From: Sphingobium indicum BiD32
Lineage (GTDB): Bacteria; Pseudomonadota; Alphaproteobacteria; Sphingomonadales; Sphingomonadaceae
DNA length: 64,000 nucleotides
Direction of reading: 5' to 3'
Assembly: GCF_000382885.1 (NCBI RefSeq)
Contig: NZ_CAVK010000250.1
Span: 1-64,000 of the forward strand
Part shown: positions 10,488-58,610 of the stretch, in pieces
Layout: the number at the start of each line of letters is the position of its first letter
Position numbering within the stretch: the first letter of the stretch is position 1
Translations under genes and position numbers: made by a program
Notes under the pieces: generated by a model
What the model was told of the DNA's origin: nothing
The model's input: the letters and a program-made list of their open reading frames with translations, nothing else
The model's database searches: none

Positions 10488-10529
10488 GGCTTGCCATCCC
10501 TGCCCGCTTTGCGTAGAGGCTAGCGCGTC

Positions 10530-10650
10530 ATCTGGGGAGTAGCCAGCCGTTCCGACGCAAGGGAACGGGCCTTATGTCAACATATTTGGCCGAGAGGTCA
10601 TGGCATGGGGGACGCGGAATTTCTGCGTAAGGCGAGACCAATGGCATCGG
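10530..10650 (+). promoter_or_regulatory. yybP-ykoY (manganese) riboswitch
   Basis: The segment carries the conserved pieces of this class in order. GGGGAGTAGCC starts near 10534. A variable stem follows, then GTCAACATAT near 10575 (consensus GTCAACATAC) and the closing GGCGAGACCAATGGC near 10631. These pieces form the Mn2+ pocket in known members. The downstream gene is a GDT1/TMEM165-type transporter, a usual target of the class. A GC-rich inverted repeat follows at about 10659-10722 (GTCCGG-CCGGGCGG with its complement CCGCCCGG-CCCCGGAC). It abuts the start codon and is the likely expression platform. Confidence 0.85.
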
Positions 10651-10658
10651 CGCTTTTC

Positions 10659-10722
10659 TGTCCGGCCGGGCGGCGAGCGACGGTGGCATTGCGTCTATCA
10701 CTTCCGCCCGGCCCCGGACATT
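10659..10722 (+). promoter_or_regulatory. Expression-platform hairpin of the Mn riboswitch
   Basis: GTCCGGCCGGGCGG pairs with the segment CCGCCCGGCCCCGGAC a few bases before the GDT1 start, with a 2-nt bulge. There is no T-run after it, so control of ribosome access seems more likely than termination. This is inference from position. Confidence 0.55.
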
Positions 10723-52131: not shown

Positions 52132-52221
<90 letters not shown>

Positions 52222-52379
52222 ATTACCCCTATTCAACTAATATCATACCCTCTCAAAGGGGCTGATTTCCATGCGTCTTCCTGCTATGTTCTCTCTCATG
52301 TTCTCTCACGGGACCGCGTCTAAGCGCGGGGTATTTGGGGGCATCATGTGGGGTACGACTAGCAAGGTAGGGGTATCAA

Positions 52380-53663
52380 ATGCTCACGGACGCTATGGCG
52401 CGAAATGCAGCGCCGAAGGACAAGCCATATAAGCTCGCCGATTCTGGCGGGCTATATCTCTATGTCGCCCCGACGGGCCTGCGATCGTGGCGAATGAAGT
52501 TCCGGTTTCAAGGCAAGGAAAAGCTCCTGACCTTTGGGCCGTACCCCGATGTACCCCTATCCAAGGCCCGGCAGAAGCGGGACGAGGCGCGCCGACAGTT
52601 GCGCGAGCATGACGATCCGTCCGGGGCGCGCAAGAAGTCAAAGGAGGCCAAGGAGGCGGAGCGGATCGCGCGCGCCCAAAAGATGACCTTCGAGCAGTTC
52701 GCCCGGACATGGCATGAAGTGCAAGCGCCGCGATGGGCACCTGTGCACGCCAAAGATGTGATCACCAGCCTAGACCGTGACGTGTTCCCCGACCTTGGTC
52801 CGCTCGCGATGGATGAGATTGATGCCCCGACGGTTCTGGCCACCTTGCGTAAGATCGAGGCGCGCGGATCGATCGAGACCGCCCGCCGCATGAGGCAGCG
52901 CATATCCGCTGTGTTTTCCTATGCCATATCGGAAGGCGTCGCCACCTACGACCCGGCTGCCATTGTGATGAAGGCGCTGAAGCCACTTCCGAAAAAAGGA
53001 AAGCAGCCAGCCCTGACCCGGCTGGACGATCTGCGCGGCGTTCTCCTCGCCGCTGAGGCTTCAGGCGCTACACCCGTGACCAAGCTGGCGTCGCGCCTGC
53101 TGGCGTTGACGAGCGTTCGCCCCGCCGTCGTGCGGGGTGTCGAGTGGGCAGAGTTCGAGGAGATCGACTGGACGGGCGATTTCATCGGCCCGATGCTTCC
53201 GATCTGGCGCGTGCCAGCCGCCCGTATGAAACTGATACTTGACCGCAAGGACGAGGAGGCTTTCGATCATGTGGTGCCTCTTTCGCACCAAGCCGTGGAT
53301 GTTCTGCGGCAGGTCCGCCGCCTCACCGGACGCGGCAAGCTGGTGTTTCCCGGCCAGCGGCACGCACATCGGCCCCTCAGTGAAAACGCGATCGGCTATC
53401 TGTATAATCGGGTAGGCTATCACGGGAGGCATGTTCCGCACGGCTGGCGCGCTGCGTTCAGCACGATCATGAACGAGCGGCACCGGCCCGACCGCGCGAT
53501 TATCGACATGATGCTGGCCCATGTCCCTAAGGACAAGGTTGAAGCCGCCTACAATCGAGCGCAACACATGGCGCGTCGGCGGGCGCTGGCGCAGGATTGG
53601 GCAGATATGTTGATGGAGGGATTACCGCCAGCTGGCGCGCTACTCGACGGCCCGCGCAGGTGA
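52380..53663 (+). CDS. Phage tyrosine integrase (P4-like, DUF4102 arm-binding)
   Basis: A 427-residue integrase. An N-terminal arm-type binding domain (DSGGLYLYVAPTGLRSWRMKFRFQGKEK) is followed by a core-binding domain and a catalytic domain with Arg in LTSVRPAVVRG, HGWRAAFST (His-x-x-Arg) and LAHVPKDKVEAAYNR (His and the Tyr nucleophile). It would insert the phage at the adjacent tRNA-Ser. Confidence 0.95.
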   Translation: MLTDAMARNAAPKDKPYKLADSGGLYLYVAPTGLRSWRMKFRFQGKEKLLTFGPYPDVPLSKARQKRDEARRQLREHDDPSGARKKSKEAKEAERIARAQKMTFEQFARTWHEVQAPRWAPVHAKDVITSLDRDVFPDLGPLAMDEIDAPTVLATLRKIEARGSIETARRMRQRISAVFSYAISEGVATYDPAAIVMKALKPLPKKGKQPALTRLDDLRGVLLAAEASGATPVTKLASRLLALTSVRPAVVRGVEWAEFEEIDWTGDFIGPMLPIWRVPAARMKLILDRKDEEAFDHVVPLSHQAVDVLRQVRRLTGRGKLVFPGQRHAHRPLSENAIGYLYNRVGYHGRHVPHGWRAAFSTIMNERHRPDRAIIDMMLAHVPKDKVEAAYNRAQHMARRRALAQDWADMLMEGLPPAGALLDGPRR

Positions 53664-55952: not shown

Positions 55953-56369
55953 CTAAATCCCCCCGAAGTCATCCCTCGGCTCACGCGGTGGCCAGTCGTC
56001 ATCCACCCCGCAATCGCCACCGTGAGGCGGGCGCTCGGGCTTTGGCTTGATGACTGGCAGCACCGGCTCGCTTCCATCGAAAGTGACGCGGATCACGGGG
56101 CCGAACGTGTCGGCACGTTGGAATATCGCGCGAACGGTCGGCAGGAGGCTGCCGATCCATTGTGCCTGTTCGGCAGGCACATAGCCCAGCTGGACATTGC
56201 GTTCAGAATATACGGCGATGGCGCGACTGTCAGCCGGGTTATTAGGCTCGCGCCGCAGATGCACACGCTCCCCTGGCAGGCATAGCGCCATCTCGAAGCG
56301 CCGAGCCGGGCCGCGCTTGTTCGGGTAATCCGCGCCCATGACGGCGATCGATTGGGCTGGTCGGGCCAT
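55953..56369 (-). CDS. Stand-alone HIRAN-domain protein
   Basis: A 138-residue protein with a HIRAN domain (SIAVMGADYPNKRGPARRFEMALCLPGERVHLRREPNNPADSRAIAVYSERNVQLGYVPAEQAQWIG), which in larger proteins recognises DNA 3' ends and damaged DNA. A proline-rich acidic tail follows (VIKPKPERPPHGGD). It sits between the PIN pair and the Mom gene, same strand as both. Confidence 0.8.
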   Translation of the reverse strand: MARPAQSIAVMGADYPNKRGPARRFEMALCLPGERVHLRREPNNPADSRAIAVYSERNVQLGYVPAEQAQWIGSLLPTVRAIFQRADTFGPVIRVTFDGSEPVLPVIKPKPERPPHGGDCGVDDDWPPREPRDDFGGI

Positions 56370-56769: not shown

Positions 56770-56982
56770 ATGGATGACAGCGCCCAAGCAGCCCTGCGGG
56801 CAATCATCCGGGCGCTAGTTAGCAGCGCGCCGGACATCATTTTGCCCGACGCGCTGACGCAAAGCCTCTACGAGATGGAGACGGAGTTGCAGAGCAACTC
56901 TAGGCCAGCCGAAGCCAGAGATGTGGGCCGTTTGGCCACATTTGCTGGTGAGCTTCGGAACGCCCGCCTCAATCGACGCTGA
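56770..56982 (+). CDS. Small hypothetical protein
   Basis: A 70-residue helical protein: DDSAQAALRAIIRALVSSAPDIILPDALTQSLYEMETELQSN. AGGAGA precedes the ATG by about nine bases, a good ribosome binding site. Not recognised. Its 3' end overlaps the convergent Mom gene by 14 bp. Confidence 0.5.
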   Translation: MDDSAQAALRAIIRALVSSAPDIILPDALTQSLYEMETELQSNSRPAEARDVGRLATFAGELRNARLNRR

Positions 56983-57706
56983 CACCATAGTCCGGCTTCG
57001 GGAACGGCAGCACCGGATATCTGCACCCCTTGGCGAACCGGGGCTTGAGGAACCGCAGATAGCGGAACTGGCGCAGCTTGTGCCGGGTCGCCCGGTCAAG
57101 TCCGGCTCTGATCGTTTGAGCGCGCGGCCCTTTGCTTTTCGAATTGGTGACGAGGCTGTTGTGATAGAAATCGCCGTCCAGTTCCCAGAAGATTCCTAGA
57201 TGCTCGCCGTGGAAGGTGAAGCCAGCCGCCTGATAAACGGTGCCGAATAGGCCGCAGCGCTGATCAGCGAACGACTGTATCCATTTCACGGGTGGGCGGA
57301 TGCGCCGGATCAACCGGATCGAGAAGGCAAGCGCCTTGCTCTCGCTGTTTCGCGGCGCGGCGTCGGAAAGCCACATTCGGTTCAGTTCGAGATATTCGGA
57401 CATGCCGGTGCCTGCGACCACGCTATCAGCGCTGGCCGGGTTCATGGCGAAGCCGTATTGCAGAACGCCGACCATCTCCACGCCTATGAAGACGCCGAGG
57501 TGAAGCGTGGAGGCGGAATAGACGCGCCTGCTGTAGTGGTTCGCCTTGATGATCCGGTTGGCGATGTCGCGATCGATAATTGCGACGCTGAAGGCGGCGT
57601 TGCCAAAGCCGATCGCGTCTCGATTGTTCGGCAGATCGAGGTTGAACAGATAGCCGGTATCCTCGCCTGCGACGCCGAAAGGCGTCTGGCCCGTTAATAA
57701 CTCCAT
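56969..57706 (-). CDS. Mom-family DNA modification protein
   Basis: A 245-residue protein of the phage Mom type (GNAT fold). Family-like blocks are ANHYSRRVYSASTLHLGVFIG, LELNRMWLSDAAPRNSESKALAFSIRLIRR, KWIQSFADQRCGLFGTVYQAAGFTFHGEH and FWELDGDFYHNSL. Mu Mom makes N6-methylcarbamoyl adenine, which shields phage DNA from host restriction. Expression of mom is tightly held in Mu because it harms the cell. Here no Shine-Dalgarno is seen before the ATG (the upstream bases are CTTCCCCTT), and the leader is strongly structured. Confidence 0.8.
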   Translation of the reverse strand: MELLTGQTPFGVAGEDTGYLFNLDLPNNRDAIGFGNAAFSVAIIDRDIANRIIKANHYSRRVYSASTLHLGVFIGVEMVGVLQYGFAMNPASADSVVAGTGMSEYLELNRMWLSDAAPRNSESKALAFSIRLIRRIRPPVKWIQSFADQRCGLFGTVYQAAGFTFHGEHLGIFWELDGDFYHNSLVTNSKSKGPRAQTIRAGLDRATRHKLRQFRYLRFLKPRFAKGCRYPVLPFPKPDYGVSVD

Positions 57707-57727
57707 AAGGGGAAGGTCTCACAAGAA

Positions 57728-57851
57728 CCCCGCCTGTTGCGCAGGTGCGGGGGCGATGCGGCTACGCGAGCCGCTAGTGACGGATGCTAGTCCGTCGGTT
57801 GCCGTGTTACAGCACGGCACCCCCGCTCGCGATATCGGAAGGCCGATATCG
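57728..57851 (-). ncRNA. Structured leader (cloverleaf) upstream of the Mom gene
   Basis: In the direction of the Mom gene: a 9-bp hairpin (57830-57851, CGATATCGG), then GCGGGGG (57820-57826, call a), then three perfect hairpins: TGCCGTG (57800-57819), GACGGA (57779-57796) and GCGGCT (57758-57774). After these come CCCCCGC (57747-57753, b) and GCGGGG (57728-57733, c). Segment a pairs with b over 7 bp and closes the three hairpins into a cloverleaf. b can instead pair with c, which excludes a-b. The ATG of the Mom gene lies 22 bp further on. It lacks the TTCGA T-loop of a tRNA. Confidence 0.7.
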
Positions 57852-57904
57852 ATGCGGACGTGTCTTTAAAATGATCGTTTGGCGCGACGTGGGCGAGGGA
57901 GTGA

Positions 57905-58549
57905 TCAGACCAGCGCCGGACCGTCCGTGCCTTTCTTGCGAAACCATGGCGCGTCGGTTGCATCGACCTCCAGCCGGTCCGCCGGATAGGGCCGGTCGAA
58001 CCGATACAGATCGGCAAGCGGTGCGGTCAGCCATGCGTCCCAATCCTGCGGATCGAGGATCACGGGCGATCGATCATGGATATGGGCAAGCTCCGGCGCA
58101 TTGTCGGTCATGACCCCGGTATAGACCGCGCCCCATTCGTCGCTCTGTGTCCACAGGCCCGCCCAGGCGAAGATCGGCTGTTTCTTCACCGACAGCCATG
58201 TTTCGGTCATGCGGCCCGGTTCGCCCACGGCCTCCGCAAAGCGCGCCGTAGGGATCAGGCATCGCTGGCGCGGCTCGGCCGCCCATCGCTTCCAGAACGA
58301 CCCCAGCTTGTCGAAACGGGCATTGTTGACGGGCTTTGGCTTAAGCGGCTGCCCCGCCTTACCCCGCAGGGAAACGGGAAAGCCCCATGTCATCTGCTCC
58401 AGCACCAGACCATCGTCGCCCATGCGCACGACGCTGCCCGGCGATTTGGGATGCACCTGCAACGGCCCCTCATTGAACCGCGCGCCCAGCTGCGCGCCGA
58501 ACAGCTTCAGCACCTTTTGCGTGTCGCCCCGTTCAGCCCGATTGCACAT
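57905..58549 (-). CDS. SOS response-associated peptidase (SRAP, YedK/HMCES)
   Basis: 214 residues from ATG 58549, so that Cys2 (MCNRAERG) is exposed after Met removal. That Cys crosslinks abasic sites in single-stranded DNA. Further markers are WGFPVSL, NARFDKLGSFWKRWAAEPRQRCLIPTARFAEAVG, WAGLWTQS and the His in ELAHIHDRSPVIL. It protects abasic sites and so fits a DNA-protection block. A LexA box lies 62 bp upstream. Confidence 0.9.
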   Translation of the reverse strand: MCNRAERGDTQKVLKLFGAQLGARFNEGPLQVHPKSPGSVVRMGDDGLVLEQMTWGFPVSLRGKAGQPLKPKPVNNARFDKLGSFWKRWAAEPRQRCLIPTARFAEAVGEPGRMTETWLSVKKQPIFAWAGLWTQSDEWGAVYTGVMTDNAPELAHIHDRSPVILDPQDWDAWLTAPLADLYRFDRPYPADRLEVDATDAPWFRKKGTDGPALV

Positions 58550-58610
58550 GCATGCGAAGGTGGTTTGCGACCGCCCGCCTGTCAACGCGCTTGACCCGAC
58601 TCGTGTCTAT

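Follow-up and report, generated by a model that had tools for sequence, protein, structure and literature searches.

A covarying leader with two mutually exclusive pairings upstream of DNA-modification genes in sphingomonad phages

The leader that precedes the Mom gene of Sphingobium indicum BiD32, within the 64,000-nt stretch of DNA analyzed here (the window), is almost certainly a real conserved structure. Relatives of this element were found mostly ahead of D12-class adenine methylase genes, and also ahead of mom and of a Com gene followed by a C5-cytosine methylase, which makes it a shared leader of phage DNA-modification genes and not a Mom-specific substitute for Com. The explanation that in our judgment best accounts for the whole, and that we consider probable on comparative grounds, is a bistable cis-acting leader that would tune translation of these phage genes.

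The locus in the window comprises the following features.

52132-53663, plus strand: tRNA-Ser (cga), then a tyrosine integrase
55953-56369, minus strand: HIRAN domain gene, flanking the Mom gene
56969-57706, minus strand: Mom gene, 245 aa, start codon at 57704-57706 (PF25680, E 5e-64; phrog_1384)
about 57866 to 57707, minus strand: putative mom 5′ leader, between the SRAP-domain gene and mom
57905-58585, minus strand: SRAP-domain gene, flanking the Mom gene on the other side of the leader

The tRNA-Ser (cga) and tyrosine integrase at 52132-53663 are likely the attachment end of a prophage. SRAP-like ORFs were also seen by eye close to the element at three other loci (L126, L035 and L172). We found no sigma-70-type promoter at window positions 57600-58000, and we infer that the leader is transcribed together with its gene. 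Elsewhere in the window, a Mn2+ riboswitch (yybP-ykoY, 50 bits) lies at 10521-10713 on the plus strand.

The original prediction described five hairpins upstream of mom, three of them closed by a 7-bp stem, and a rival pairing that would exclude this stem, and we found each of these in the sequence. The stem (GCGGGGG at 57747-57753 with CCCCCGC at 57820-57826) encloses the hairpins at 57800-57819, 57779-57796 and 57758-57774, and one further hairpin lies outside it on each side (57830-57851 and 57733-57745). The rival strand, CCCCGC at 57728-57733, can bind 57747-57752 instead of the stem. The parts of the leader, in the direction of the gene, are as follows.

57854-57864, minus strand: 5′ box RACACGUCCGC, whose CCGC end can pair with the P1 5′ strand (P0-long)
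57830-57851, minus strand: hairpin P0, taken from the fold; sequence and length vary among loci (comparison by eye)
57820-57826, minus strand: P1 5′ strand, GCGGGGG in RNA sense, with 57747-57753 or the 5′ box as partner
57800-57819, minus strand: hairpin P2, both-side changes in 6/6 pairs
57779-57796, minus strand: hairpin P3, both-side changes in 6/6 pairs; many A-C cells
57758-57774, minus strand: hairpin P4, both-side changes in 6/6 pairs; 89% of cells paired
57747-57753, minus strand: P1 3′ strand, common to P1 and P5-long; 97.5% of P1 cells paired
57733-57745, minus strand: hairpin P5, short form, both-side changes in 4/4 pairs
57728-57733, minus strand: P5-long partner of 57747-57752; 86% of cells paired (A3), one covarying pair
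57718-57722, minus strand: weak SD-like GUGAG, its GAG 11 nt ahead of the AUG
57717-57833, minus strand: core matched by covariance model R1, 113 bits

The minimum free energy of the minus strand was -75.3 kcal/mol (z -3.93), and none of 200 dinucleotide shuffles folded as low. The plus strand of the same stretch folds equally stably (z -3.96), so the strand is not given by energy alone. At the element, Rfam 15 returned no family at its gathering score, either in the window or in four relatives, with weak matches far below that score. A genomic repeat was ruled out, the element being single copy in its own genome. A third state suggested by single folds, in which 5′ GGCCGAGC pairs with the P4 5′ strand, was also rejected, since on A2 none of its pairs had both-side changes and 76% of its cells were paired.

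To find relatives, Mom homologues were taken from IMG/VR (the best 80 of 211 as loci), and among these the same leader recurs with many letter changes. Model R1, built from 21 leaders aligned with MAFFT without use of structure (alignment A2), matched 17 of these best 80 of 211 Mom loci and, within the host family, 25 of the 397 genomes searched. Run under stricter Infernal filters over 385 genomes of the class, four other host-family members among them, it matched the element's own genome only. Pattern scans added viral contigs and 19 stretches from species genomes, which were titled Sphingomonas, Sphingobium, Novosphingobium, Rhizorhabdus and Altericroceibacterium, plus two outliers known from their titles alone (Microvirga, L166; Roseisolibacter, L181, a 3,974-base contig). 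Together, the viral contigs and sphingomonad genomes gave 82 model matches, which reduced to 70 distinct cores including that of the window; 14 of the 70 came via the Mom search and so precede Mom by construction, and 56 came via RNA or pattern searches. A second model, R2, matched in 11 of 296 genomes of the order and contributed five new loci (L183-L187). A DNA similarity search of phages and plasmids gave no match to the element. Divergence extends to what the models barely detect, as in the Mom leader L033 (15.9 bits, E 0.45), which has the same architecture built from other P1 letters.

The original prediction had named covariation as the check on this structure, and the fold covaries strongly. 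In A2 (21 rows), which was not fitted to a model, 10 of 28 pairs showed changes on both sides, in 40 cells, compared with means of 6.0 and 10.8 in shuffled alignments. The larger alignments A3 and A5 were fitted to a model and therefore lean toward the structure; A3 (60 distinct rows) gave both-side changes in 23 pairs and 161 cells (shuffles, 10.4 and 36.5), and A5 (82 distinct rows) in 25 of 28 pairs and 284 cells (shuffles, 15.5 and 59.3). A5 includes diverged D12 leaders and has 84 rows, one of which (L117) is a spurious opposite-strand row that was left out of the strand and P5-long pair counts on A5 (81 rows). Seven weak loci (L116, L122, L124, L126, L128, L129 and L130) were left out of A5, of the mutual-information test and of the A3 G-U test, and L033, L233 and L237, for which model matches are poor or lacking, also lie outside A5. 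In A5, 95.3% of cells were paired, compared with at most 52% in slid versions, and P2, P3, P4 and P5 had both-side changes at every pair. P1 was nearly invariant, with both-side changes in 3 of 6 pairs. Ranked by APC-corrected mutual information, the first nine column pairs were all predicted base pairs.

Alongside this, the alignments support two mutually exclusive pairings, both of them apparently conserved. P5-long, at 86% of cells paired on A3, was marginal against shuffles (43 of 500 reached it). At its variable pair (A5, 81 rows), U-A occurred in 9 of 19 rows with U, versus C-A in 2 of 61 (Fisher p 1.7e-5), and the other 10 rows with U have G opposite in 7 and no partner in 3. P1 holds that same U as G-U in 17 of 82 rows. 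On the other side of the stem, the ACAC of the 5′ box was anchored in 53 of 62 leaders, the following G, T, C, C and G being present in 44-50 of those 53, and the region upstream of about -8 was little conserved across the 62. When P5-long was enforced, at least 3 of the 6 letters of the P1 5′ strand paired upstream in 39 of 44 folds, and in L107, L134, L154 and L109 the 5′ box and the P1 stem vary together by eye. The proposed competition of the 5′ box for the P1 5′ strand (P0-long) rests on energies and on the changes seen by eye.

Constrained energies for 44 leaders, with 16 of 60 excluded because they have no anchor letters, placed the open state lower in 37 and the closed state lower in 6, with one tie. 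The open-closed difference averaged -3.8 kcal/mol (sd 3.8) and was smaller than 5 in absolute value in 27 of them. The window leader, against the majority of the 44, favors the closed state by 3.5 kcal/mol, so the two folds may be out of balance in vivo. We infer that the leader may switch between the two.

A static leader, whose hairpins protect the mRNA or insulate a weak ribosome site and give steady low expression with no switching, strikes us as unlikely, albeit as the most credible of the alternatives. It would account for the hairpins P2-P5 being the best-supported parts, for the near invariance of P1, for P5-long covariation coming mainly from one pair, and for the lack of covariation in a terminal hairpin that would hide the SD, a candidate we rejected on that ground. 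Against it, diverged members keep both partners of the P1 3′ strand, as the rows with U show, and the AACC junction is invariant in the 21 A2 leaders, though it varies in diverged ones. We continue to prefer the bistable leader.

Covariation and wobble pairs alone do not fix the strand. In the paired columns of an RNA, G-U is expected to exceed A-C. Over all helices in A5 (81 rows), we counted 40 G-U and 60 A-C among 2,240 cells, and A3 without its weak rows gave 17 G-U versus 33 A-C (15 versus 20 changes by parsimony). As a control, the TPP riboswitch of the host family (30 of its matches; MAFFT and RNAalifold) gave 10 G-U versus 5 A-C, and the difference between the two had p 0.09. Split by helix post hoc, P1, P2 and P5 of A5 had 32 G-U versus 11 A-C, and P3 and P4 had 8 versus 49 (2 to 29 in P3, 6 to 20 in P4). 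An A-C in P3 or P4 would read as G-U on the opposite strand, the reverse of P1, P2 and P5.

These counts bear on the reading that selection for pairing acts on the DNA itself or on an RNA of the opposite strand, the sequence serving, say, as a site where modification cassettes are exchanged or a protein binds. The absence of an overall G-U excess, the ratios in P3 and P4, the equally stable plus-strand fold and the fact that non-homologous genes lie behind one element would all suit it. Against it stand the G-U excess in P1, P2 and P5 (with the caveat of a post hoc split), the distance that the element shares to the start codons of co-directional genes, and the presence of one element per locus (63 matches in 63 of 64 sources), which means that there is no flanking pair of sites. 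We regard this reading as very unlikely, and chose the minus strand, that of a leader RNA, because the distance to co-directional genes is shared.

That distance is short and consistent. The first ATG lies 10-11 nt past the model end in 43 of 60 loci and 5-15 nt past it in 54 of 60, and the start context ATGGAGTC is common to 32 of the 70 cores, though the proteins are non-homologous. Behind the 70 distinct cores, the next gene was a D12-class adenine methylase in 38, Mom in 20, Com in 2 and none of these in 10. Setting aside the 14 cores fetched through Mom, the remaining 56, window included, gave 38 D12, 6 Mom, 2 Com and 10 with none, so that a DNA-modification gene follows 60 of 70 cores, or 46 of 56. 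Pfam searches of representatives matched PF02086 in four D12 proteins and PF25680 in one Mom, and at L118 and L155 the element is followed by a PF10122 Com gene that has, in place of mom, a PF00145 C5-cytosine methylase directly after it. In the new R2 loci L183-L187, a D12 methylase was behind the element in 5 of 5.

The reverse test started from 32 D12 matches, spread over 26 of the 199 family genomes searched, and 30 of these matches yielded loci. A model match (E <=0.05) lay directly upstream on the gene strand in 24 of these 30, of which 10 were already known from the RNA side and 14 were new. The six without a model match were L241 and L245, which have a different leader, L243, L247, and L233 and L237, which by eye carry diverged elements. 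The ten cores with no modification gene next comprised L103 (a transposase-like ORF next, by eye), L148 (which ends at the element) and eight others: L114 at 79 bits, L116 at 67 bits, and six below 60 bits (L122, L124, L126, L128, L129 and L130), and these six may be chance matches or remote relatives. Two of the six, L128 and L129 (1501-1617; 58 and 56 bits), have by eye a YebC-like gene nearby and no evident phage context.

The shared start-codon spacing and start context also weigh against the possibility that the leader controls transcription, targeting RNA polymerase or Rho as either an attenuator or a put-like antitermination RNA, since such control would need neither. Terminator-like features do occur: one such match in the window overlaps P5, and L023 and L144 have, by eye, a terminator-like hairpin and U run just upstream of the leader. 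A U run after P5 is absent, however, from most of 54 leaders (by eye), and we think control of this kind improbable.

The classic example of a modification gene with unusual, layered control is Mu mom, for which a single protein, Com, accounts for the control exerted on translation. The original prediction held that Com is absent here and that the element replaces it for Mom, and these two claims fared differently. Com absence was borne out, PF10122 being unmatched in the window's genome assembly (estimated 93% complete) and in 24 of 25 element-bearing genomes, the exception being the genome with com behind the element. Replacement of Com was not: the element mostly precedes D12 genes (38 of 70), two elements precede com itself, and most of the Mom loci examined show neither. 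Among the best 80 of 211 Mom loci, 17 had an R1 match and no Com-like ORF, L042 had Com and no element, and 62 had neither, although L033 and L041 among these 62 carry diverged elements and some Mom contigs end within a few hundred bases upstream of mom, too close to judge. The Com search over these 80 loci (best 80 of 211), based on profiles extended from three seeds, picked up L042 alone, and the Pfam Com model, run on 43 of the 80 Mom-bearing virus records, some of them fragments, matched in 1 of the 43.

Homologous Mom genes without the pairing, which the original prediction had set as evidence against itself, do exist among distant relatives. Close relatives behave as predicted, with the element in 19 of the 20 Mom loci at >=70% identity (from the best 80 of 211); 17 match R1, L041 matches R2 (34.5 bits), L033 has a matching fold, and only L031 lacks it. 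Because Com is rare near mom and most of these 80 loci show neither, the element is typical of one phage/gene clade and is not a general Com replacement.

Unrelated methylases (D12 and C5) carrying the same element speak against a further reading, in which Mom itself would employ the cloverleaf as an RNA that acts in trans or resembles a tRNA. Its cloverleaf shape is all that recommends it, and neither ARAGORN nor Rfam (RF00005) sees a tRNA at the element in the window. We consider this extremely improbable.

The statement that the Mom start has no Shine-Dalgarno was nearly right, although a weak word remains, which in the window is GUGA. At -18 to -5, 51 of 54 leaders had a longest complement to the anti-SD of 3-4 nt, two had one of 5 nt and one had none. 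The conserved helices of the fold in the window stop short of the start codon, and a weak 4-bp hairpin touches the AUG. The proposed role as a cis-acting control element seems likely given a conserved, covarying leader directly before the start in which two exclusive pairings are kept, and we are fairly confident that the leader would act in cis on the expression of its gene.

In the mechanism we propose, the leader RNA would take one of two forms, a cloverleaf closed by P1 or an open hairpin array, and the balance between them would be shifted by a host factor, a phage factor or folding kinetics. This balance would then decide how well ribosomes initiate at the weak site a few nucleotides downstream, so that the genome-modifying enzyme could be kept low in the lysogen and allowed to rise late in lytic growth. 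We put forward tentatively, as a model that could well prove wrong, the step in which the equilibrium between these folds determines translation. The restriction to one host family, together with the several gene types, suggests that the signal is a host factor or a phage-stage cue and not a widespread metabolite like SAM. Methylases use SAM, and Mom is not known to do so.

A second, unrelated conserved leader was seen during this work, with ACUCAGCGCGCGUAGCCGACGUGCU following a variable hairpin, ahead of D12 methylases and one Mom without a cloverleaf (L031, L241, L245, L248, L249, L251-L255, L259, L260, L262, L264, L266, L268 and L270). Its core sits about 45-60 nt or slightly more before the gene, and its CUCAGC could pair with GCUGAG adjoining the start. 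For its 16-base core, a D12 or Mom gene was next in 14 of 23 viral stretches (alignment A6). Upstream of it in L248 (1266-1357, minus strand) lies a sub-threshold match to sRNA-Xcc1, at 31.9 bits versus 53.

The element belongs to a family of structured leaders of sphingomonad phages that we did not find described in Rfam 15 or in the literature searched, and its novelty rests on these two sources. A search of the openly accessible literature, outside which lies the 2017 survey with its 224 candidate RNAs, turned up no leader shared by phage DNA-modification genes, and the main text of PMC2864571 does not contain "methyltransferase," "methylase," "restriction" or "Sphingo." It is conceivable, though we would not presume it, that the element represents a novel kind of RNA switch that senses a ligand or a protein and is dedicated to DNA modification, a portable leader over Mom, m6A and m5C enzymes. 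If so, the phage genomes of one bacterial family's temperate phages would be marked only at the right stage, and the second, unrelated leader would make such control a strategy reached more than once. The wider set of phage modification genes with a shared leader constitutes a testable regulon, one RNA over three enzyme chemistries and mostly without Com. It offers a defined element through which to study the timing of DNA modification by phages, as well as a portable, covariation-supported RNA whose structure and ligands can be investigated.

Among known systems, the nearest is com-mom of phage Mu. According to PMC6483171, the zinc-finger protein Com recognizes CC(N)2-3GAG within the loop of a hairpin and presumably opens a translation-inhibition structure of the mom mRNA. 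As there, the element is a structured mRNA region right before the Mom start and belongs to a temperate-phage DNA-modification gene (PMC6483171). By eye, the Com motif resembles the last loop in some leaders (L034, L029 and L154 among them), and it is not seen in the window (UCUUGUGAG). Unlike Mu com-mom, the element is larger, with four covarying hairpins and a closing stem, it is shared by D12 and C5 methylases and in two loci lies ahead of com, and no Com was found in 24 of 25 genomes that bear it. It resembles the RNAs of a 2010 survey (PMC2864571) in resting on comparative evidence and in that some of those (manA, wcaG) are phage-carried. With the riboswitches and cis-regulatory leaders of Rfam 15, it has in common a conserved, covarying 5′-leader fold and a seemingly conserved, mutually exclusive alternative pairing next to a translation start. 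It differs from the riboswitches among them in being tied to DNA modification and not to a metabolite pathway.
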